This document shows positions 948 through 41,344 of a stretch of DNA of 52,990 nucleotides, in pieces. This DNA is from Bacilli bacterium (GTDB taxonomy: Bacteria; Bacillota_I; Bacilli_A; RF39; UBA660). Below the pieces are notes generated by a model. It was not told the origin of the DNA. It searched no databases and saw nothing but the letters and a program-made list of their open reading frames with translations. How positions within the stretch are numbered: the stretch's first letter is position 1; every line of letters starts with the position of its first letter. Where the stretch lies: positions 1 to 52,990 of the forward strand of contig JAQUVS010000002.1 in NCBI GenBank assembly GCA_028693275.1, in the 5' to 3' direction. The position numbers and the translations under genes were made by a program.

Positions 948-1673
948 ATGCAAAGATATTTTACAAAAGAATATAAAAATGATAATTTAGAAATGAATAA
1001 TGATGATTCATATCATATAATTACTGTAATGAGAATGAAAGAAAAAGATCAATTTGAATTGGTAATTAATCATAAACTATATATTGCAGAAATAACAAGT
1101 ATAGAAAATAAAAAAGTACTTGCTAAAATAGTTAAAGAAATAGAAGATGATAATAACCTATCTATGGATGTTACTTTAGTCCAATCCCTTATAAAAGAGC
1201 AAAAAATGGATTATGTCCTTCAAAAATCTACAGAACTAGGTGTAAATAAAATTATTCCTTATCAAGCAACTAGATCAATAATAAAAGTAGATAATAAAGA
1301 GGATAAAAAAATAGAAAGATGGTCTAAAATAGTTAAAGAGGCATCTGAACAATCAAAAAGAAATTCTATCCCAGAAATAATTAAAAGTTTAAATATAAAT
1401 GAACTTATTAAATTAGAAGATTATGATATCAAAATATTAGCAACAGTAAATGAAGTGTCAACAAACATAAAAAAAGTATTATCAAATGTAAGAATAAGTG
1501 ATAGAATAATAATAGTAATAGGGCCAGAAGGTGGTTTCACTGAAAAAGAAGAAAAACTACTAATGGAAAACGGATTTATATCAACTTCCCTTGGAAGGAA
1601 TGTTATGAGAACTGAAACAGTTGGATTATTTATTCTTTCAATATTACAATATAATTTTATGGAGTGTGAATAA
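948..1673 (+). CDS. rsmE: 16S rRNA (uracil-1498-N3)-methyltransferase RsmE
   Basis: A 241-residue SPOUT-class methyltransferase that makes m3U1498 in helix 44 of 16S rRNA using S-adenosylmethionine. The N-terminal part (1-70) is the PUA-like RNA-binding domain. The C-terminal trefoil-knot domain shows IGPEGGFTEKE near residue 190 and the LGRNVMRTETVG motif near 215, which form the cofactor pocket. LVQSLIKEQKMDYVLQKSTE near residue 83 is also typical. Length matches the family. The GGTTGGTGAT stretch before ATG 948 acts as ribosome binding site. The next gene begins three bases after the stop, so the two are probably cotranscribed. Confidence 0.93.
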   Translation: MQRYFTKEYKNDNLEMNNDDSYHIITVMRMKEKDQFELVINHKLYIAEITSIENKKVLAKIVKEIEDDNNLSMDVTLVQSLIKEQKMDYVLQKSTELGVNKIIPYQATRSIIKVDNKEDKKIERWSKIVKEASEQSKRNSIPEIIKSLNINELIKLEDYDIKILATVNEVSTNIKKVLSNVRISDRIIIVIGPEGGFTEKEEKLLMENGFISTSLGRNVMRTETVGLFILSILQYNFMECE

Positions 1674-25141: not shown

Positions 25142-28100
25142 ATGAAGAAGAAATATCATTTTTATGAAGAAAAAAAAGGTTATACGTTAATAGAAATATT
25201 AGCTGTTTTAGTAATTATGGGAGTAATAGCAACAATAGCAATCTTTGGAGTACTAGAATTAATCCAATGGTCAAAGATGGAATCTTTTAGAGCAACAGCA
25301 ATAAATATTTCAGGAGCATCATCTCTTTACGCAAGTGATAAAGGAATGGAAGAAGGAGACGAAAAGATAGTAATAAAGTACCCAGATGATAAAAACACCT
25401 TAGAAATAAGAGGTAAATTACCAGATTATGGAAAAGTAGTAATTGAAACAGAAAATGATATAACTATGAATCTATATAGTAGAGAATTAAGAACGTGTGC
25501 ATATAAAGATAAAATATCAACAAAAGTTAGATTAGTAAGAAGTATGACAGCCTACGAATGTTACATATACGAAGGAGAAGAAGGAGAAAACAATGGTTCT
25601 GGAGGAAATTCTGATAACACTGATTTAGCTAATGGAGGAAATACATCATTTTTAGGATGGATAACACTACATTTATTCTATCCAGAGGAAAGTTATGACA
25701 GAATGTGGCGCCTAGATACTAACGGAGAAGTAAGAACAAATGAAGATGATTGGCAAGAATATACAGGACCAATAACAATCCCAATAGATAGAGTAGAAGA
25801 TGTATGGATAAAATATAAATTAGATGAAAGTGGTTATAAAATAATCGCTCCAAATGGAAAAGCAGTAGTAGATATAGTACCAGATGAAACAAAAAAATTA
25901 GTAGAAAAAGTAAAAATAAGAATAGACTATGACGAAAATGCAACAAAAAAATTATATAGAATAGATTATGGAACATGGCAAGAATATACAAAAGAGTTTT
26001 ATGTCACAGAAAATGTAATAATAGAAGCAAAAGTAGAGAAAAATGTAGATATTTTTGATAATTTAGGAAATAAAGTTGGAACAAAAAAACTAACAGGAAG
26101 AGACTCATATGAAATTGAAAATATTAAACCAGCAGATCCAGTGCCAGGAATACCTGCTCCTATAATTACAAGAACAACACCAGACGTTGGAAATGTAGCA
26201 GCAGTAATAATAACATATCCAGAATCTTCAAAAAACAAAACATATAAAATAGATTATGGAATAGCTATGACATATAGCGAAAAAGTAAATTTCAAAACAT
26301 ATGACCATGTAATTCAAGCATACTACTATACTTTAGATGGAAAGAAAAGTATGGTTGCAAAAAAAATAATTGATGAGCCTGATACAGAACAAGTAAATCA
26401 AGGACCAGGAGGAACTGGTGGAGGAGGAATATGTACAAAAGATTGTCCATTAGATGAACCGATTATCAATGCAAACCCAGAATCAATAGCAACATCAGTA
26501 AGTGTAACAGTCGATTATCCAATCGAAGCAATTGATAAATATATAAAAATAGGTTCAGGAAAATATGAAAAGTATACAGGAGCAAAGATATTAACCTCCC
26601 AAGCTATGGTATATGCATATTATCTAGACATTAATGGTGAAATGTCTCCAATTGCAGTAAGAAATATTAATAATTTCTTAACCCCACCAGGTCCAGGTGG
26701 AAGTGGGAAAGTATACCCATCAGTTTCTATAGAATTAGAACCATTAAGAGATAGAACAACATCAGTAAATGTAAAAATATATTCATCTGATGCAACAGAA
26801 GTACTATATAGTTTTGATGGTCATAACTATTTACCATATACAGGAGCATTCAATGTAACGAAAAACACAGCGATATATGCAGTTGCAAGAAATGCAAATG
26901 GAGAAGATACTGATCAGGCATATATAACAAATATAGGAACAAATCCACCTATAAAAGATAAATTATCAGTAGATATAGTTGCTAAACCAGACTTAACTGG
27001 AACAACAACAAAAACAGATGAAGTATTAGTAACAATAGTATATGATATAAGAGCTACAACAAAGAAATATAGTTTAGATGGAACAACATTTATAGACTAT
27101 ACTGGTCCTTTTAAAGTAACAAAAAATACAACTATAACAGGAATAGCTACATCACAAACAGGGTATGGAAGTAGAAAAAAACTAATAACAGGAATAGGTA
27201 CTCCAGAAGTAGCAGTACCAGTTATAACAATAAATCCAGAAGAAACGATAACAAGTCAAGTAGAAGTATCAATAGCATATGGAACAGAAACAACTATTAA
27301 ACAATATAGAATTGGTAGTGGAGAATTAACAAACTATACAGGACCATTTATAGTAAAAGAAAATACAACTATATATGCATATGCATCAAATGGTACAGAT
27401 GAAAAAATATCCTCAAGAAATATAACTAATATAAAAACAGAAGCAACAGTAGATAAAGTAACAATAATAGAAATGGATAAATATTTCTTGTTAAAACTAA
27501 ATTATCCAAAAACGGCCTTTATAAAAGAATATAAATATACAGAAGCAGGGACATGGAAAACATATCCAACAGATGGAATTTTATTAATCAAAGCAGAATA
27601 CAAAGATGAAATAGTAAATAATTCAAAAGTTATCATTAAAATAAAAGATGAAAACGGACTATATAAAGTATTTAATGGGGATTATTATTTTATACAAGGA
27701 TCTGTTTATGATATAAGAGATTCAATATATATGAGATGGGATATGACAAAACCAACAGGGCCAACATACTTAATTGATGATACGTCATATACAGATAGAG
27801 TAAATGTAAGTGTAATAAATTCAAGTAAATGTATATCAAGTGAATATAGTATAATGGAACCAGGTTTAGAAAGAACAGAATGGACAAAATATACAAATCC
27901 AATAACAGTAACAAAAAATAATACAGTTATATATGGAAGATGTATAAATGCTTTTGAAGTATATTCACAAGAAACAAATTATAAAGTAATAAATATAGAT
28001 GACACAGCACCAGTTATTTCATCAGTAACAAATGTAACAAGAAGTTCATCTATAACAATAACAATAAATGCAAATGATCCAGAAAGTGAATTATATAAAT

Positions 28101-31100
28101 ATGAAGTAAGATTAAATTCTGGAGAATGGATAGATACAAATATGTCCAGTACATATAAATTTAATGGTTTAACAGAAGCAACAGCATATGTAATAGATGT
28201 AAGAGTTAAGAATATATTAGGTTTAACAAGTGAAGTTAAAACATATAATATAACAACACCAATAATGGAACTGCCACTAATAACAGTTACTGATTTAGCT
28301 GTTTGGAAACCGATTAAAAATGTAACTTTTACAATACCATCAAATCAGCCATTAAATGAATATACATATTTATATAGTTTTGATAATGTAACATGGAATA
28401 ATTATATAGGCCCTTTTGGTTTAATATATAATACAAGTTTATATGTAAAATTAATAGATTCAAATGGTGTTGTAAAAACAACAAATTTAATTATAGATAA
28501 AATAGATAACACGGTACCAACAATTAATCTAAATTCAGTTCCTAGTTTGGTAACATTGGGGTCGAGTTATACTTTACCTACAACTTATACACTCAATAGT
28601 AGTTTGTCAGGTGGAACAGTTACATGTAAATCAGGAACAACAAATTATACAAATACAGAAGTTATGCAAATAGGAATATACAATTTAGTGTGTACAGTCA
28701 CAACAGGTGCAGGAAATGTTGCTACTGCATCTAAAACAATAGAAGTAAAAAATGGAATTCCTATAGTAGCAGATAACTTGTATGAGTTATTAAATTCTAA
28801 TAAAATGATAGACAACCAAAGTTATTCAGTAACATTTTCAAATGACCAAATAATAGATATTGAATATCATGAAATAGGTGGAGATGTCACATATTCAAGT
28901 AATCCAACATTATGTAATAATTTGATGGATACATACATGTGCGTTTACAAGTATACTGGTAATTTGACAATAAATTCAGGAGTAACTTTAACACCTCAAG
29001 TTAGAAAGAAAGGATTGTTAATATATGTTAATCAAACGTTAACAAATAATGGAACAATCTCAATGACTGCAAGAGGTGCAAGTGCAGTAGGACAAGATGT
29101 TTTGCTTTATAAAAATTCAAATAGTTCATATGAATACGTTCCCGCACTTGGAGCAGTTGGCGGAGGAGGTATAGGGGGACTATATGCTAAAGCTGCCGGT
29201 AATCCGGGACACTCAGCTAGTACTGTCTTAACATCAATAAGAGCAACAGGAGGCGGAGGAGGCGGATCTGTTTATAATTCATTAACTGACAGAGGAATAG
29301 GTACTCCAGAAGTAGCAGTACCAGTTATAACAATAAATCCAGAAGAAACGATAACAAGTCAAGTAGAAGTATCAATAGCATATGGAACAGAAACAACTAT
29401 TAAACAATATAGAATTGGTAGTGGAGAATTAACAAACTATACAGGACCATTTATAGTAAAAGAAAATACAACTATATATGCATATGCATCAAATGGTACA
29501 GATGAAAAAATATCCTCAAGAAATATAACTAATATAAAAACAGAAGCAACAGTAGATAAAGTAACAATAATAGAAATGGATAAATATTTCTTGTTAAAAC
29601 TAAATTATCCAAAAACGGCCTTTATAAAAGAATATAAATATACAGAAGCAGGGACATGGAAAACATATCCAACAGATGGAATTTTATTAATCAAAGCAGA
29701 ATACAAAGATGAAATAGTAAATAATTCAAAAGTTATCATTAAAATAAAAGATGAAAACGGACTATATAAAGTATTTAATGGGGATTATTATTTTATACAA
29801 GGATCTGTTTATGATATAAGAGATTCAATATATATGAGATGGGATATGACAAAACCAACAGGGCCAACATACTTAATTGATGATACGTCATATACAGATA
29901 GAGTAAATGTAAGTGTAATAAATTCAAGTAAATGTATATCAAGTGAATATAGTATAATGGAACCAGGTTTAGAAAGAACAGAATGGACAAAATATACAAA
30001 TCCAATAACAGTAACAAAAAATAATACAGTTATATATGGAAGATGTATAAATGCTTTTGAAGTATATTCACAAGAAACAAATTATAAAGTAATAAATATA
30101 GATGACACAGCACCAGTTATTTCATCAGTAACAAATGTAACAAGAAGTTCATCTATAACAATAACAATAAATGCAAATGATCCAGAAAGTGAATTATATA
30201 AATATGAAGTAAGATTAAATTCTGGAGAATGGATAGATACAAATATGTCCAGTACATATAAATTTAATGGTTTAACAGAAGCAACAGCATATGTAATAGA
30301 TGTAAGAGTTAAGAATATATTAGGTTTAACAAGTGAAGTTAAAACATATAATATAACAACACCAATAATGGAACTGCCACTAATAACAGTTACTGATTTA
30401 GCTGTTTGGAAACCGATTAAAAATGTAACTTTTACAATACCATCAAATCAGCCATTAAATGAATATACATATTTATATAGTTTTGATAATGTAACATGGA
30501 ATAATTATATAGGCCCTTTTGGTTTAATATATAATACAAGTTTATATGTAAAATTAATAGATTCAAATGGTGTTGTAAAAACAACAAATTTAATTATAGA
30601 TAAAATAGATAACACGGTACCAACAATTAATCTAAATTCAGTTCCTAGTTTGGTAACATTGGGGTCGAGTTATACTTTACCTACAACTTATACACTCAAT
30701 AGTAGTTTGTCAGGTGGAACAGTTACATGTAAATCAGGAACAACAAATTATACAAATACAGAAGTTATGCAAATAGGAATATACAATTTAGTGTGTACAG
30801 TCACAACAGGTGCAGGAAATGTTGCTACTGCATCTAAAACAATAGAAGTAAAAAATGGAATTCCTATAGTAGCAGATAACTTGTATGAGTTATTAAATTC
30901 TAATAAAATGATAGACAACCAAAGTTATTCAGTAACATTTTCAAATGACCAAATAATAGATATTGAATATCATGAAATAGGTGGAGATGTCACATATTCA
31001 AGTAATCCAACATTATGTAATAATTTGATGGATACATACATGTGCGTTTACAAGTATACTGGTAATTTGACAATAAATTCAGGAGTAACTTTAACACCTC

Positions 31101-31894
31101 AAGTTAGAAAGAAAGGATTGTTAATATATGTTAATCAAACGTTAACAAATAATGGAACAATCTCAATGACTGCAAGAGGTGCAAGTGCAGTAGGACAAGA
31201 TGTTTTGCTTTATAAAAATTCAAATAGTTCATATGAATACGTTCCCGCACTTGGAGCAGTTGGCGGAGGAGGTATAGGGGGACTATATGCTAAAGCTGCC
31301 GGTAATCCGGGACACTCAGCTAGTACTGTCTTAACATCAATAAGAGCAACAGGAGGCGGAGGAGGCGGATCTGTTTATAATTCATTAACTGACAGAGGAA
31401 CAAGTGGTTCAGGAGGAGCTGGATCTTCTTACTCTGGAGGAACAGGAGGCGGATCTTCTGATTCAAGAAAATATAACGCTGGAAATGGTGCTCCAAACGG
31501 TGGTGCCGGTGGATTTGCAGAAGCTGCTGCTGGTAGTGGCGGTGCTGGTAATCCAGGAGGAAGCGCTGGGGATAGTTGGAAGACTTGCGTTGCAGGTGCA
31601 AATGGAACTGGTGGATTACTAATGATATATTCCAATAGTTTAATAAATAATGGAACATTACAATCAAATGGTATTCAAAATGTTGTAACCAATAAATATC
31701 GTCCAGATACTTCTGGTGGTTCTTCTGGTGGTGGAAGTATAAATATATTTTATAAAAATTCCTTTTCTAACACAGGAACTATATCTTCAGCTGGTGGATT
31801 GGCTACTACCGGTGCGGCCTATAATGGTGGAGCTGGTGGAACTGGTTCTGTAACAATAGGATCAATAGAAACAGGGACATTTATAATTAACTAA
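25142..31894 (+). CDS. Giant pseudopilin-anchored surface protein with Ig-like/chitobiase-type repeats and Gly-rich tail
   Basis: A 2250-residue protein. The start GYTLIEILAVLVIMGVIATI gives a prepilin cleavage site (Gly-Tyr) and Glu at mature position 5, after an unusually long charged leader of about 13 residues. From about residue 200 there are repeated modules resembling the chitobiase/beta-hexosaminidase C-terminal domain, each containing Y-x-[IL]-x-x-G-x-x-x-x-Y-T-G-P-F and ending with a [TI]-x-[IV]-x-A-x-A pattern. These are followed by fibronectin/Ig-like modules, a beta-rich module with TLTNNGTISMTARGA and a glycine-rich tail (GGTGGGSSDSRKYNAGNGAP). A 701-residue block (about 684-1385) is repeated in tandem, so the Gly-rich domain appears once cut short and once complete. 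The binding site is AGGGTGAG. It is probably a very large pseudopilus subunit or adhesin. Confidence 0.8.
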   Translation: MKKKYHFYEEKKGYTLIEILAVLVIMGVIATIAIFGVLELIQWSKMESFRATAINISGASSLYASDKGMEEGDEKIVIKYPDDKNTLEIRGKLPDYGKVVIETENDITMNLYSRELRTCAYKDKISTKVRLVRSMTAYECYIYEGEEGENNGSGGNSDNTDLANGGNTSFLGWITLHLFYPEESYDRMWRLDTNGEVRTNEDDWQEYTGPITIPIDRVEDVWIKYKLDESGYKIIAPNGKAVVDIVPDETKKLVEKVKIRIDYDENATKKLYRIDYGTWQEYTKEFYVTENVIIEAKVEKNVDIFDNLGNKVGTKKLTGRDSYEIENIKPADPVPGIPAPIITRTTPDVGNVAAVIITYPESSKNKTYKIDYGIAMTYSEKVNFKTYDHVIQAYYYTLDGKKSMVAKKIIDEPDTEQVNQGPGGTGGGGICTKDCPLDEPIINANPESIATSVSVTVDYPIEAIDKYIKIGSGKYEKYTGAKILTSQAMVYAYYLDINGEMSPIAVRNINNFLTPPGPGGSGKVYPSVSIELEPLRDRTTSVNVKIYSSDATEVLYSFDGHNYLPYTGAFNVTKNTAIYAVARNANGEDTDQAYITNIGTNPPIKDKLSVDIVAKPDLTGTTTKTDEVLVTIVYDIRATTKKYSLDGTTFIDYTGPFKVTKNTTITGIATSQTGYGSRKKLITGIGTPEVAVPVITINPEETITSQVEVSIAYGTETTIKQYRIGSGELTNYTGPFIVKENTTIYAYASNGTDEKISSRNITNIKTEATVDKVTIIEMDKYFLLKLNYPKTAFIKEYKYTEAGTWKTYPTDGILLIKAEYKDEIVNNSKVIIKIKDENGLYKVFNGDYYFIQGSVYDIRDSIYMRWDMTKPTGPTYLIDDTSYTDRVNVSVINSSKCISSEYSIMEPGLERTEWTKYTNPITVTKNNTVIYGRCINAFEVYSQETNYKVINIDDTAPVISSVTNVTRSSSITITINANDPESELYKYEVRLNSGEWIDTNMSSTYKFNGLTEATAYVIDVRVKNILGLTSEVKTYNITTPIMELPLITVTDLAVWKPIKNVTFTIPSNQPLNEYTYLYSFDNVTWNNYIGPFGLIYNTSLYVKLIDSNGVVKTTNLIIDKIDNTVPTINLNSVPSLVTLGSSYTLPTTYTLNSSLSGGTVTCKSGTTNYTNTEVMQIGIYNLVCTVTTGAGNVATASKTIEVKNGIPIVADNLYELLNSNKMIDNQSYSVTFSNDQIIDIEYHEIGGDVTYSSNPTLCNNLMDTYMCVYKYTGNLTINSGVTLTPQVRKKGLLIYVNQTLTNNGTISMTARGASAVGQDVLLYKNSNSSYEYVPALGAVGGGGIGGLYAKAAGNPGHSASTVLTSIRATGGGGGGSVYNSLTDRGIGTPEVAVPVITINPEETITSQVEVSIAYGTETTIKQYRIGSGELTNYTGPFIVKENTTIYAYASNGTDEKISSRNITNIKTEATVDKVTIIEMDKYFLLKLNYPKTAFIKEYKYTEAGTWKTYPTDGILLIKAEYKDEIVNNSKVIIKIKDENGLYKVFNGDYYFIQGSVYDIRDSIYMRWDMTKPTGPTYLIDDTSYTDRVNVSVINSSKCISSEYSIMEPGLERTEWTKYTNPITVTKNNTVIYGRCINAFEVYSQETNYKVINIDDTAPVISSVTNVTRSSSITITINANDPESELYKYEVRLNSGEWIDTNMSSTYKFNGLTEATAYVIDVRVKNILGLTSEVKTYNITTPIMELPLITVTDLAVWKPIKNVTFTIPSNQPLNEYTYLYSFDNVTWNNYIGPFGLIYNTSLYVKLIDSNGVVKTTNLIIDKIDNTVPTINLNSVPSLVTLGSSYTLPTTYTLNSSLSGGTVTCKSGTTNYTNTEVMQIGIYNLVCTVTTGAGNVATASKTIEVKNGIPIVADNLYELLNSNKMIDNQSYSVTFSNDQIIDIEYHEIGGDVTYSSNPTLCNNLMDTYMCVYKYTGNLTINSGVTLTPQVRKKGLLIYVNQTLTNNGTISMTARGASAVGQDVLLYKNSNSSYEYVPALGAVGGGGIGGLYAKAAGNPGHSASTVLTSIRATGGGGGGSVYNSLTDRGTSGSGGAGSSYSGGTGGGSSDSRKYNAGNGAPNGGAGGFAEAAAGSGGAGNPGGSAGDSWKTCVAGANGTGGLLMIYSNSLINNGTLQSNGIQNVVTNKYRPDTSGGSSGGGSINIFYKNSFSNTGTISSAGGLATTGAAYNGGAGGTGSVTIGSIETGTFIIN
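27190..29297 (+). repeat. 2.1-kb tandem repeat, copy 1
   Basis: First copy of a directly repeated block with a period of 2103 bases (701 codons). Lines compared across the block appear identical. The copy starts and ends at AGGAA. In this copy the Gly-rich module breaks off after residues SLTDR and runs straight into copy 2. Confidence 0.95.
29293..31400 (+). repeat. 2.1-kb tandem repeat, copy 2
   Basis: Second copy, offset exactly 2103 bases from the first. It shares the five bases AGGAA with copy 1 at 29293-29297, and the same AGGAA occurs at its end (31396-31400). After 31400 the reading frame continues into the complete Gly-rich tail. Confidence 0.95.
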
Positions 31895-37389: not shown

Positions 37390-38076
37390 ATGGTAGGTAA
37401 AATAATAGTTATTGAAGGGACAGAATGTTCAGGAAAAGATACTCAAAGTAAACTTTTAGTAGAAAAATTAGCAAGTAGGGGAATTAAAGCAATTCATTTA
37501 GGATTTCCAATGTATGATTCTGCTACTGGTAAAATAATAAAAGGACCTTATTTAGGTAAAGATGAAGAAATAAATTCTTATTTTAAAGAAGGGCCAATAA
37601 ATGTTGATCCTAAAATAGCTTGTCTTTATTATGCAGCAGACAGACTATATAACATAGATAAAATAAAAGAATATGTTAAAGAAGGATACTACGTAATATT
37701 AGATAGATATATAAGTTCTAATATGGCTCATCAAGGATGTAAAATAGAAGATAAAGATGAAAGATTTAATATGTTTCAGTGGATTGATAAACTAGAATAT
37801 TGGTTATTGAATCTTCCAAAACCAGATATAACTATCTTACTTAAATTACCTTATGAATATAATAATATATTAAAATCAAAAAGAAAATGTGTTCAAGGAG
37901 ATGAAGAACACCAAGAATATTATAAGAATGTAGAAATTACTTATAATGAATTATCAGGTTTATATAATTGGGATACAGTCGAATGTGTTAAAGACAATAC
38001 TATTAGAGAAATAGAAGATATAAATACTGAAATATTAAACATAATAATAGAAAAAAAAGAAACTATTCATTACTGA
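37390..38076 (+). CDS. tmk: Thymidylate kinase family protein
   Basis: A 228-residue P-loop kinase. EGTECSGKDTQSKLL (residues 8-22) is the P-loop region, DRYISSNMAHQG the DRY/DRH motif and KSKRKCVQGDEEHQ the lid region. It should phosphorylate dTMP to dTDP. ATG 37390 was chosen because the in-frame ATG at 37348 lies inside the promoter, while AGAGGTGAT immediately precedes 37390. The sequence around the P-loop (TECSGKDT) is less standard than in most Tmk (DGxGKT/S), so another (deoxy)nucleoside monophosphate kinase is possible. Confidence 0.82.
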   Translation: MVGKIIVIEGTECSGKDTQSKLLVEKLASRGIKAIHLGFPMYDSATGKIIKGPYLGKDEEINSYFKEGPINVDPKIACLYYAADRLYNIDKIKEYVKEGYYVILDRYISSNMAHQGCKIEDKDERFNMFQWIDKLEYWLLNLPKPDITILLKLPYEYNNILKSKRKCVQGDEEHQEYYKNVEITYNELSGLYNWDTVECVKDNTIREIEDINTEILNIIIEKKETIHY

Positions 38077-39355
38077 TAGTTTCTTTTTTATTTTTTATTT
38101 CTTCTTTTTCATCATCTTGTTCTTGTTGTCTAGCTAATTGTAATATTAAATTAACTTGATTATCTAAAGCATCTTCTATTTCAATCATCTTATATATTTC
38201 TTCAAAAGTAGTAAATCCATCTAATACTTTTTCAAGTCCATCTTGTAACATTGTAATTACATTATTATTATCATATACAAGTTCTCTCAAATCTTCTTTT
38301 TTAAGATTAGGATTATTAATAGCATCTCTTAAATCTTCATTTATAACAAGTACTTCATGAACTGCAATTCTTCCATGGTAACCATTCATACATTGATCAC
38401 ATTTTCCTGGTTCATAAACTTCAACTACGTCTTTACCAATCATTTCTTTAAATACTTGTTTTTCAAAAGGAGTAGTATTTCTTAATTTACGACAATGAGG
38501 ACATAATGTTCTAGCAAGTTTTTGTGAAATAATTCCAGATAAAGCACTAGATAATAAATATCTTTCAACATCCATATCAAGTAATCTTTCAATAGTAGAT
38601 AAAGAGTTATTAGTATGGATTGTAGATAAAACTAAATGTCCTGTAATAGAAGCTCTAACAGCTATTTGAGCAGTTTCACTATCACGAATTTCCCCAATAA
38701 GTATAATATTAGGATCTTGACGTAAGATGGAACGTAAAACACTAGCAAAAGTTAAACCAATCTCGCTATTTACCTGAACTTGATTAACTCCTTCAATATT
38801 CATTTCTATTGGATCTTCAACAGTAATAATATTAGTATCTTCTTTATTTAATTCTTGTAGCATACAATATGTAGTAGTAGATTTACCACTACCAGTAGCT
38901 CCGGTAACAAGAATAATACCATTAGGAATAGCCATCATTTTCATTAACTTTTTATAATTCTTTCTAGAAAAACCTAAAGAAGTAATTCCTCTTAAACTTC
39001 TAGAGTAGTCAAGAATACGAATAACAACTTTTTCACCTTCATTAGTAGGTAAAACAGAAACACGCATGTCCAAATCCATATCATCAATGCGTCCCTTAAT
39101 AGCCCCATCTTGAGGTAATCTATTTTCTGTAATATTCATCATAGAAATTAATTTAATTCTTGTAACTAAATTACGCTCAAATTCTTTAGGTATAATAGTA
39201 TGATCACGAAGATTACCATCAACCCTCATACGTATTTTAATTCCATCTTCTATTGGGTCAAAGTGAATATCTGAAGCACCCAGTTTAACTGCTGCTACGA
39301 TAATTTTATTTGCCAAATCAACTATAGGTATATTTGCTACATCATATTTTATCAT
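38063..39355 (-). CDS. GspE/PilB-type assembly ATPase
   Basis: A 430-residue secretion ATPase of the type II secretion/type IV pilus family. It has the N2 domain (LGASDIHFDPIEDGIKIRMRVDG), Walker A GATGSGKST (152-160), the Asp box, Walker B NIILIGEIRDSETA and the His box. A four-cysteine zinc site is formed by CPHC (285-288) and CDQC (319-322). It is shorter than most PilB because the N-terminal N1 domain is absent. It drives pseudopilus extension from the cytoplasmic face. AAGGGG precedes the start. It is divergent from two pseudopilin genes at 39474-41344. No GspF/PilC platform or prepilin peptidase lies in the window. Confidence 0.92.
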   Translation of the reverse strand: MIKYDVANIPIVDLANKIIVAAVKLGASDIHFDPIEDGIKIRMRVDGNLRDHTIIPKEFERNLVTRIKLISMMNITENRLPQDGAIKGRIDDMDLDMRVSVLPTNEGEKVVIRILDYSRSLRGITSLGFSRKNYKKLMKMMAIPNGIILVTGATGSGKSTTTYCMLQELNKEDTNIITVEDPIEMNIEGVNQVQVNSEIGLTFASVLRSILRQDPNIILIGEIRDSETAQIAVRASITGHLVLSTIHTNNSLSTIERLLDMDVERYLLSSALSGIISQKLARTLCPHCRKLRNTTPFEKQVFKEMIGKDVVEVYEPGKCDQCMNGYHGRIAVHEVLVINEDLRDAINNPNLKKEDLRELVYDNNNVITMLQDGLEKVLDGFTTFEEIYKMIEIEDALDNQVNLILQLARQQEQDDEKEEIKNKKETISNE

Positions 39356-39473
39356 TTTATAACCCCTTTTATCTTTTTTATTCTTTCACATTAATTTACT
39401 CTTTACTATGGTAATTTAACTTAATTTATTATATAATATTTTCAAGATATAATCAATAAAGGAAGTGAAATTT

Positions 39474-40784
39474 GTGATAAATTTGACTAATAAAGGATTC
39501 TTGCTTGTTGAAACACTTGTTGTAACTGTATTCGTAATGGGAATATTTTTATTTGTTTACAACAACACAGTACCAATGATAGCCCAGTTAGAAAAAATGA
39601 GTAATTACGATGATATGGAAAGTGTTTATGGGGCAGAACTTATTAAAAATATGGTAAAGGGAGATAATAATTTTTCATCTATAATTTCAAATCTAGATGA
39701 AGACACTTTCTATTATGACATTACTGATTGTACAAATTATACTGATCAAGAATTTTGTACTAATCTTAAAAGTAGTCTTAAATTATTAACTACTGATACA
39801 ACAGTTAATGGTAAAACAGCCTATAGTGACAGAATAATTATCACAGATTATAATATAAAAAAATTACAAGAAGAAATTAATAAAGGGAACCTTTTCTTTA
39901 CTAATAGAGATAGGGGACTTAAAGAATATATAACTACTTTAGAAGATTATTCAAATGATGGATCAATCACAGTAGGTAATTATAGAGTTATTATTTCAAG
40001 AACAACAATGGATGGAAATTCATTTACAAAAAAATATGCTAATATAGAATTAATTGATAATTTAGAGCCTGTAGTTCCTGTTGTCTATGGAAATGGAACA
40101 GCCGTATATTTTAATCCAGTAACAGGAGCAAAATGTACAGCAGGAGAAGCAGTAAGCACAACTGGCACTAAAACGGGATGTATGAAATGGTATGCATTTA
40201 ATGATGGTGGAGCGTCTACTGATACTATCAATTTGATACTAGACCATAATACTACTGCTTTAGTAGCATGGAATTCCACAGGAAGCAATGTAAGTGGCCC
40301 AACAAACGTAATGACACAGCTTCAAACTGATACTAGTGCTTGGGCAGGAGTACCAACAAGAACAGATAGTTATAGTGTAAGTAATGGAACTGCTACTTAT
40401 ACAATAAATTATAGTACATATAAGGCTAGACTAATAAAGGCATCTGAAATAGCTACAATAACAGGAAATAGTAGTTTTGTAGAGGCAACAGCGACATATA
40501 AAAGTTCGTTTTATTTAGATAGTAATAATCAAACACAAACAGCAACTACAACTGGAGCAAGTAATTATGACTGGCTATTTGATTATACAAACGGATGTAC
40601 TAGTTACGGATGTAATATAGATGATGCAAGTAACTATGGGTACTGGACATCTACAGCTATCTCTGGCGCTACTAGCGAAGCTTGGGCCGTGAGTAGGGGC
40701 GGCAACTTGGGCAACAGCCTCGTAGTTCGTGCAGACAGCCGCGGCGTGCGCCCAGTTATAACTCTTCCAAAATCAATGTTATAA
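39474..40784 (+). CDS. Pseudopilin with lectin-like C-terminal domain and GC-rich variable-region-like end
   Basis: A 436-residue prepilin. The leader MINLTNKG is followed by FLLVETLVVTVFVMGIFLF, with Glu at mature position 5. The middle (about 30-190) looks like a pilin body. Residues about 200-436 resemble the DUF6273/DUF1566-like C-type-lectin-related domain: MKWYAFNDG, KARLIKASEIATITG, WLFDYTNG, YGYWTSTAISG and the ending GVRPVITLPKSML. The last ~40 residues are encoded by unusually GC-rich, NNC-rich DNA. GTG 39474 was chosen because AAAGGAAG lies at 39458-39465, well spaced; the in-frame GTG at 39465 overlaps that site. It is likely a surface-exposed, possibly diversified adhesin. Confidence 0.8.
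   Translation: MINLTNKGFLLVETLVVTVFVMGIFLFVYNNTVPMIAQLEKMSNYDDMESVYGAELIKNMVKGDNNFSSIISNLDEDTFYYDITDCTNYTDQEFCTNLKSSLKLLTTDTTVNGKTAYSDRIIITDYNIKKLQEEINKGNLFFTNRDRGLKEYITTLEDYSNDGSITVGNYRVIISRTTMDGNSFTKKYANIELIDNLEPVVPVVYGNGTAVYFNPVTGAKCTAGEAVSTTGTKTGCMKWYAFNDGGASTDTINLILDHNTTALVAWNSTGSNVSGPTNVMTQLQTDTSAWAGVPTRTDSYSVSNGTATYTINYSTYKARLIKASEIATITGNSSFVEATATYKSSFYLDSNNQTQTATTTGASNYDWLFDYTNGCTSYGCNIDDASNYGYWTSTAISGATSEAWAVSRGGNLGNSLVVRADSRGVRPVITLPKSML
40659..40755 (+). other. Candidate diversity-generating retroelement variable region
   Basis: By hand count 63 of the 100 bases at 40661-40760 are G or C, in a strongly AT-rich genome. From 40659 to 40754, 16 of 32 codons end in C (GGC, AAC, AGC, CTC, GAC, CGC), whereas the surrounding gene mostly uses A- or T-ending codons. 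This is what adenine-specific mutagenesis of AAC template codons yields. It codes residues 396-427 of a lectin-like domain, the position where variable regions sit in known target proteins. No template repeat or reverse transcriptase is seen in the window. Confidence 0.6.
40756..40784. repeat. Inverted repeat just after the GC-rich region
   Basis: TTATAAC (40756-40762) and GTTATAA (40778-40784) are a perfect inverted pair with a 15-base loop, ending on the stop codon. Hairpins after variable regions aid retrohoming in some retroelements, but this one is AT-rich with a long loop and may be chance. Confidence 0.35.
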
Positions 40785-40813
40785 TATAAAATTATGAAAG
40801 AATGGTGATAATC

Positions 40814-41344
40814 ATGAATAATAATAAAGGTTTTACTTTAGTAGAATTAGTTTTAAGTTTTGCTCTTATTATGATAGTAATAATGGGTATGTTAACAATT
40901 ATTATGAATTACAAATTAAAAGCAAATCTTCAACAAGCAAGAAGTAATATGATTACATATAAAGATACTTTAACTAAAGATATCCAAGATGATATTCATG
41001 ATTTAGGGGTGTCTTCAATAGCTACCTGTACTACTAACCCAGATACTTGTGTTGATATAAATTTTATGAATAGTACTACAAAAAAATTATATACAAATAA
41101 AACTGATTTAAGAAATAAATATATTATTTACGGAGATATTATATATAGAATAGAAGATAATATTCCTCAAAAAGTAGATAATGCAAATCTTGCAACATAT
41201 CAAAATATTGAACTATTACCAACTGCTACTCCTATTTTAAATACTTACGTAGGAAGTAGTAAAACTATATATACAATATCTATTCCTATCATAAACAAAG
41301 ATTTAGAAAAAGATTTTGGAATATATATAACAGTAGTAAAATAA
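40814..41344 (+). CDS. Pseudopilin (minor prepilin)
   Basis: A 176-residue prepilin. MNNNKGFTLVELVLSFALIM has the Gly-Phe cleavage site and Glu at mature position 5, then a hydrophobic helix. The head is short with four Cys (CTTNPDTC and others), PEDICTABLY small as in minor pseudopilins. ATG 40814 follows GGTGAT at 40804-40809; the in-frame ATG at 40802 overlaps that site. It starts 29 bases after the lectin-like pseudopilin and is likely cotranscribed. It ends at a clear terminator. Its partners are presumably the neighbouring pseudopilin and the divergent ATPase. Confidence 0.85.
   Translation: MNNNKGFTLVELVLSFALIMIVIMGMLTIIMNYKLKANLQQARSNMITYKDTLTKDIQDDIHDLGVSSIATCTTNPDTCVDINFMNSTTKKLYTNKTDLRNKYIIYGDIIYRIEDNIPQKVDNANLATYQNIELLPTATPILNTYVGSSKTIYTISIPIINKDLEKDFGIYITVVK

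Follow-up and report, generated by a model that had tools for sequence, protein, structure and literature searches.

A likely retroelement variable repeat closing the gene for a modular type IV minor pilin in an uncultured Bacilli bacterium

The diversity-generating retroelement (DGR) of the BPP-1 type, known from a Bordetella phage, comprises a reverse transcriptase (RT), the protein Avd, a template repeat (TR) and a variable repeat (VR). In Bacteroides, type V pili have been described whose tip pilins are diversified by DGRs (Macadangdang 2024, cited in PMC12632263), and some of the DGR variable proteins of the DUF1566 (Lcl_C) class have putative pilin structures (PMC6642488). In Streptococcus sanguinis, the type IV pilins PilB and PilC have been reported to be modular, each with an adhesin module grafted on (PMC8179133), and DGR targets remote from their retroelement are overlooked by surveys of contigs (PMC8144416). 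The gene considered here encodes a pilin whose 3' end resembles such a target. It lies in a window of 52,990 nucleotides, the whole stretch of DNA that was analysed, which makes up the first 53 kb of an 82 kb contig (C49) from an uncultured gut-type Bacilli bacterium; the assembly amounts to 969 kb in 52 contigs and is 93% complete, and those of its relatives that bear names are likewise uncultured Bacilli. A literature search with most subscription papers outside its scope found no paper combining "diversity-generating retroelement" with "prepilin", nor DGRs with Mollicutes.

The best explanation of this gene, with a probability of roughly 0.87, is that of a DGR-written VR carried on a minor pilin of modular build that belongs to a ComG-like type IV pilus. 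The first approximately 200 residues would constitute a conserved pilin, while the C-terminal 235 or so would form a DUF6273/Lcl_C-like domain of the ligand-binding type that came from related Bacilli. An error-prone RT would copy an AAC-rich template, altering adenines at random, and the resulting cDNA would then replace positions 40659-40757 (about 33 codons), the likely purpose being to give a pilus adhesin a changeable binding face. Sequence comparison strongly supports the segment 40659-40757 as a DGR variable repeat on a pilin; from the same body of data we infer a tip position, ligand binding and lateral transfer.

Base composition sets the end of the gene apart. At positions 40661-40760, 63 of 100 bases are G or C, against a window mean of 25.0 per 100 (sd 6.3); the maximum for 100 bases is 65, at 40654, and in the whole window no stretch of this length outside the gene end reaches 63 or more. 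Codons ending in C make up 16 of the 32 codons from 40659 and only 31 of the 398 preceding ones (Fisher p=5.6e-9). These recounts bear out the GC excess and the codon bias reported in the original prediction, as well as its unbroken frame, which is open from 39465 to 40784 and encodes 439 aa. Within the tract, arginine is encoded by CGC, CGT or AGG and glycine by GGC, despite the AT-rich genome. Rewriting by a DGR from an AAC-rich template would produce such C-ending codons and high GC in an AT-rich genome. The signature is not intrinsic to the domain, given that the homologues at L004 and L114:8460-9383 have AT-rich ends. Chance or protein composition, whereby a tail of Gly, Arg, Ala and Ser would call for GC-rich codons, has next to no probability: the tail is indeed rich in Gly and Arg, but the best 33-codon run across 13 other window genes holds 8 C-ending codons, against 16 of 33 in the tract, homologues with the same domain have AT-rich ends, and the codon counts, together with the codon-position test and the template-adenine columns described below, effectively exclude it. 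A GC-rich paralogue that donated the segment by gene conversion or transfer, with no DGR involved, would account for a tract that is compositionally foreign to the genome. This route is nonetheless very improbable, as the tract is single-copy, with no similar copy in its own genome, the GC excess is restricted to about 100 bp, and conversion from a single donor would not predict differences that favour the first two codon positions and the template adenines.

One relative, G106, has the best homologues of the C-terminal domain, seven genes in all. Three of these are 84-89% identical in amino acids to the window protein in the flanking part of the domain and diverge strongly from it in the last 33 codons or so. 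When the window gene and these three homologues are compared, the differences at codon positions 1, 2 and 3 amount to 0.10, 0.12 and 0.25 in the flank, with the peak at position 3 that is usual for an ordinary gene, and to 0.37, 0.33 and 0.14 in the VR (Fisher p=2.9e-9), where the pattern is reversed and most changes fall on positions 1 and 2. Many aligned VR codons take the form nnC or nnT, the first two bases being free and the third fixed, the pattern that random replacement of adenines in AAC or AAT codons yields. All four VRs have a GC content of 0.55-0.65 and approximately half NNC codons, with the window VR, at 0.65, displaying the highest GC signature of the compared set.

Templates from sister genera point in the same direction. 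In the relative G075, an AAC-rich template that includes ...NAWNVNNNGNLNNNNVDNANNNGVR... adjoins an RT, an Avd-like protein and a protein with a MutS domain I (MutS_I). Set against this TR, the four VRs are variable at 25 of 28 columns with a template A and at 9 of 44 columns without one (p=6.6e-9); against the TR of a further relative, G073, the corresponding counts are 22 of 25 and 12 of 47 (p=3.4e-7). The window VR alone, aligned ungapped with the G075 TR over 72-73 bases, has changed 18 of 28 adenines and 8 of 44 other bases (p=1.2e-4). The constant 3' end, GGCGTGCGCCCAG, is common to the related VRs and is partly present in the G075 and G073 TRs. The variation is thus limited to adenines, as in a DGR target, when judged by sister-genus templates in place of the organism's own. 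With this A-limited variation at codon positions 1 and 2 in four homologues, the proposal that the gene is a DGR target has gained strong support.

In these relatives the machinery itself has been detected. DGR RT and Avd genes occur in G106, G075 and G073, accompanied in G106 and G075 by a MutS_I-domain protein; the Avd of the G106 cassette scores above the DivGenRetAVD cutoff, and the NF033474 profile detects Avd in six relatives. A pattern search recovered template-like sequences from 7 of 196 relatives, the reversed control pattern giving zero matches, and in G075, G073, G006, G081 and G108 one such sequence lies within about 1.2 kb of an RT. Loose limits in an ungapped scan for templates yielded mainly A-rich noise, and a weighted score was used instead. 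The relatives' machinery produces real VR/TR pairs: a second prepilin target in G106, with an FGE-like end, differs from its own TR at 15 of 160 sites, 14 of them at a template A, and a G073 pair shows 10 mismatches at A and 1 elsewhere.

Additional aspects of these retroelements have been observed. In G106, two copies of one DGR cassette lie far apart on one contig (L038 3972-7879 and L086 5259-9166), each comprising a prepilin with an FGE-like end, a TR, a MutS_I protein, Avd and RT, and over 2367 bases the copies are 99.9% identical. In DGR cassettes of this family, Avd and RT are immediately preceded by a small MutS domain I (mismatch-recognition) protein (L038 6124-6495, L092 2326-2748); DGR surveys have reported MutS-like accessory genes. 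The metagenome-assembled genome Lapin-018__bin91, from rabbit gut, contains roughly thirty genes with this same variable domain (L131-L186), many of them at contig starts and at least some with VR-like GC-rich ends, an unusually large repertoire of DGR targets. Among the viral contigs, domain relatives were not found, and the sole template-like pattern match of this class lies in L225 (163,674 bases), at 1038-1070 (-).

The protein itself has the organisation of a modular pilin. It carries a class III prepilin signal, NKG|FLLVE, with Glu at +5, in agreement with the prepilin N-terminus first noted for it, and its C-terminal module is missing from plain orthologues. Syntenic orthologues of its first 200 or so residues were located by tblastn in many relatives, between a divergent GspE/PilB-like ATPase and a second prepilin; profile matches to ComGD and ComGF are weak, and the pilin identity is supported by this synteny. 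About 14 examined orthologues are plain (about 155-270 aa) and end near residue 200. In six genomes the same locus bears other C-terminal modules that differ from case to case: a LamG lectin (G084, twice), a glycine-rich module (G090), LRR_5 (G066), DUF7507/DUF11 (G063), DUF6273 (G041) and an unassigned end with a similar IRPVINL motif (G035), these counts not being a frequency since long frames were sampled on purpose. The product had initially been called a pseudopilus subunit; the pilin assignment stands, but a ComG-like type IV minor pilin onto which a module has been grafted is the better description. In G084, the conserved minor pilin locus occurs as a tandem pair (L193), both members with Laminin_G_3 modules.

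As for the grafted domain, an alignment of 51 sequences gave weak matches to DUF6273 in 19 and to Lcl_C in 7, and the window protein itself matched neither. An AlphaFold model of the domain reached a pLDDT of 96.6; Foldseek related it to DUF6273 phage proteins (E 3e-5) and to an IgA peptidase entry (E 5e-4), and a search of the PDB by sequence returned no match. By analogy with S. sanguinis PilB and PilC (PMC8179133), the module may mediate adhesion at the filament. When the window gene is set against G106, the flank of the domain shows 84-89% identity and a difference of 0.33 at 4-fold sites, while the corresponding values for LepA are 77% and 0.58. A domain closer than a highly conserved housekeeping protein points to lateral transfer, and on the evidence of this one marker gene the VR domain was probably grafted on in this way.

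Several results weigh against a DGR-written VR. Family searches of the 52-contig assembly detected no DGR RT and no Avd (NF033474 in the latter case), and similarity and pattern searches of it recovered no TR; a template pattern in which each base was allowed as is or as A had the VR itself as its only match in this genome. The near-identical copy of about 100 bp that the original prediction proposed to look for was likewise not found there. Its further claim was that template and RT lie outside the window; neither was found anywhere in the assembly. In G106, a template for the window-type VR was found neither in the loci nor by pattern search. The A-limited comparison spans genera instead of strains and uses templates from other organisms, and a few VR changes fall at inferred non-A sites (e.g. 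GTT for GAC). For the domain, FGE matches by fold in the PDB were not significant (E about 3), with C-type lectins likewise far from significant; the domain first described as lectin-like resembles DUF6273 and Lcl_C (DUF1566), and a C-type-lectin fold, plausible from what is known of the family, has weak support.

At 93% completeness and in 52 contigs, the template and RT may be unassembled, lost or never present; a cassette may reside in the missing 7% or so of the genome, or may have been lost. Two accounts of the present state of the VR have thus to be weighed. In one, which has a chance just short of even, a DGR is active in the organism itself and acts in trans from a cassette carried by a mobile element or by genome sequence missing from the assembly. 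The VR has an open frame and a fresh signature, the targets in G106 and G073 sit on contigs apart from the RT, and trans action has been inferred for other bacteria (PMC10907252), but no trace of a cassette exists in the assembly. In the other, which is tentative and falls somewhat below even odds, the VR is frozen: a DGR wrote it at some earlier time, or the domain arrived already diversified, and with the machinery gone it now undergoes ordinary evolution. RT, Avd and TR are absent from the assembly, yet the same family searches detect them in relatives; the domain has apparently been laterally acquired, as its 4-fold-site difference indicates; and a G106 homologue with an AT-rich VR demonstrates that ends lacking the GC-rich signature exist. 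Conversely, the window VR holds the strongest GC signature of the set, leaving little time for drift in base composition, and the missing portion of the genome and the gaps between contigs leave room for a cassette. Considering that this signature is the strongest while some homologues are AT-rich, the last rewriting was probably recent.

Two further elements of the organism's own genome were considered and set aside. The only RT of this genome, on contig C35, was rejected as a DGR RT: it is the truncated protein of a group II intron, lies near a contig end and has an RF02005 RNA next to it; there, at L002 790-1704, the group II intron RNA is followed by a maturase reading frame with an early stop. 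The paralogue on contig C24 (L004 105-1247), a prepilin with the same C-terminal domain class that adjoins a leucine-rich-repeat-like protein, was rejected as a donor or second target, having an AT-rich end without the signature.

The features of the locus are listed in Table 1. For the target gene, an alternative start, GTG at 39474, has the better-placed ribosome site. Other GC peaks of the window were rejected as VRs, the largest of them being glycine-rich coding sequence: the next peak after the tract, 59 at 31476, is unrelated to it and belongs to the glycine-rich region of a prepilin-like protein of 2250 aa (25142-31894 (+)), within whose gene several other peaks also fall. This protein has a prepilin N-terminus (N_methyl 3e-5), fn3 domains and glycine-rich repeats, and is possibly another, giant modular pilin.

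Table 1. Features of the minor pilin locus, in window positions
Feature	Position	Strand	Basis
Pilin module of the target gene (NKG|FLLVE, Glu+5)	39474..40064	+	Orthologue of the conserved minor pilin adjoining a GspE/PilB-like ATPase; tblastn synteny in relatives, weak ComGD/ComGF profile matches
Grafted C-terminal variable-protein domain, about 234 aa	40083..40781	+	AlphaFold pLDDT 96.6; 78-84% aa identity to three G106 copies; relatives match DUF6273/Lcl_C
Variable repeat (VR), GC-rich, NNC codons	40659..40757	+	Variable columns on template adenines of related DGR template repeats
GGCGTGCGCCCAG, constant GC-rich VR 3' end, candidate initiation of mutagenic homing (IMH) site	40743..40755	+	Inferred from alignment
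GspE/PilB-like assembly ATPase, divergent neighbour	38063..39355	-	PF00437, 8e-120; neighbour kept in relatives
Second prepilin, downstream neighbour	40802..41344	+	N_methyl PF07963, 4.6e-7; neighbour kept in relatives

This locus joins modular type IV pilins and targeted hypermutation in one uncultured Bacilli lineage. It is conceivable, at less than even confidence, that in this small-genome lineage DGRs diversify adhesin modules which pass from one species to another and become attached to a conserved minor pilin, so that binding specificity is both swapped and hypermutated, with the window gene served in trans. If the system is active, the pilus could sample many ligands in a single population. 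A GC-rich, NNC-ended gene tail in an AT-rich genome may also serve as a practical sign for DGR targets whose machinery lies on another contig.

When compared to the BPP-1-type DGR, the window gene shares a C-terminal VR with A-limited variation of NNC codons, and the relatives share the RT, Avd, surface-protein targets and an AAC-rich TR with a GC-rich block at its end. Points of difference are that the window holds the target only, that this target belongs to the minor pilins of type IV pili, and that Avd and RT have a MutS domain I protein alongside them in G106 and G075. With the type V tip pilins of Bacteroides, it would have in common the display of diversity on a pilus tip adhesin of a host-associated bacterium; those pili, however, belong to diderm bacteria and are lipoprotein-derived, unrelated filaments, whereas the window gene encodes, in Bacilli, a type IV pilus subunit of the class III prepilin kind. 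The DUF1566 (Lcl_C) proteins represent a domain class typical of DGR targets, to which homologues of the window protein show weak matches, although the protein itself matches neither Lcl_C nor DUF6273. S. sanguinis PilB and PilC likewise combine a small pilin module with a grafted C-terminal one, and the locus in relatives bears varied modules, but the module grafted in the window carries a DGR variable repeat. The mechanism is a known one, and its carrier, a modular type IV minor pilin in Bacilli, is a new variant.
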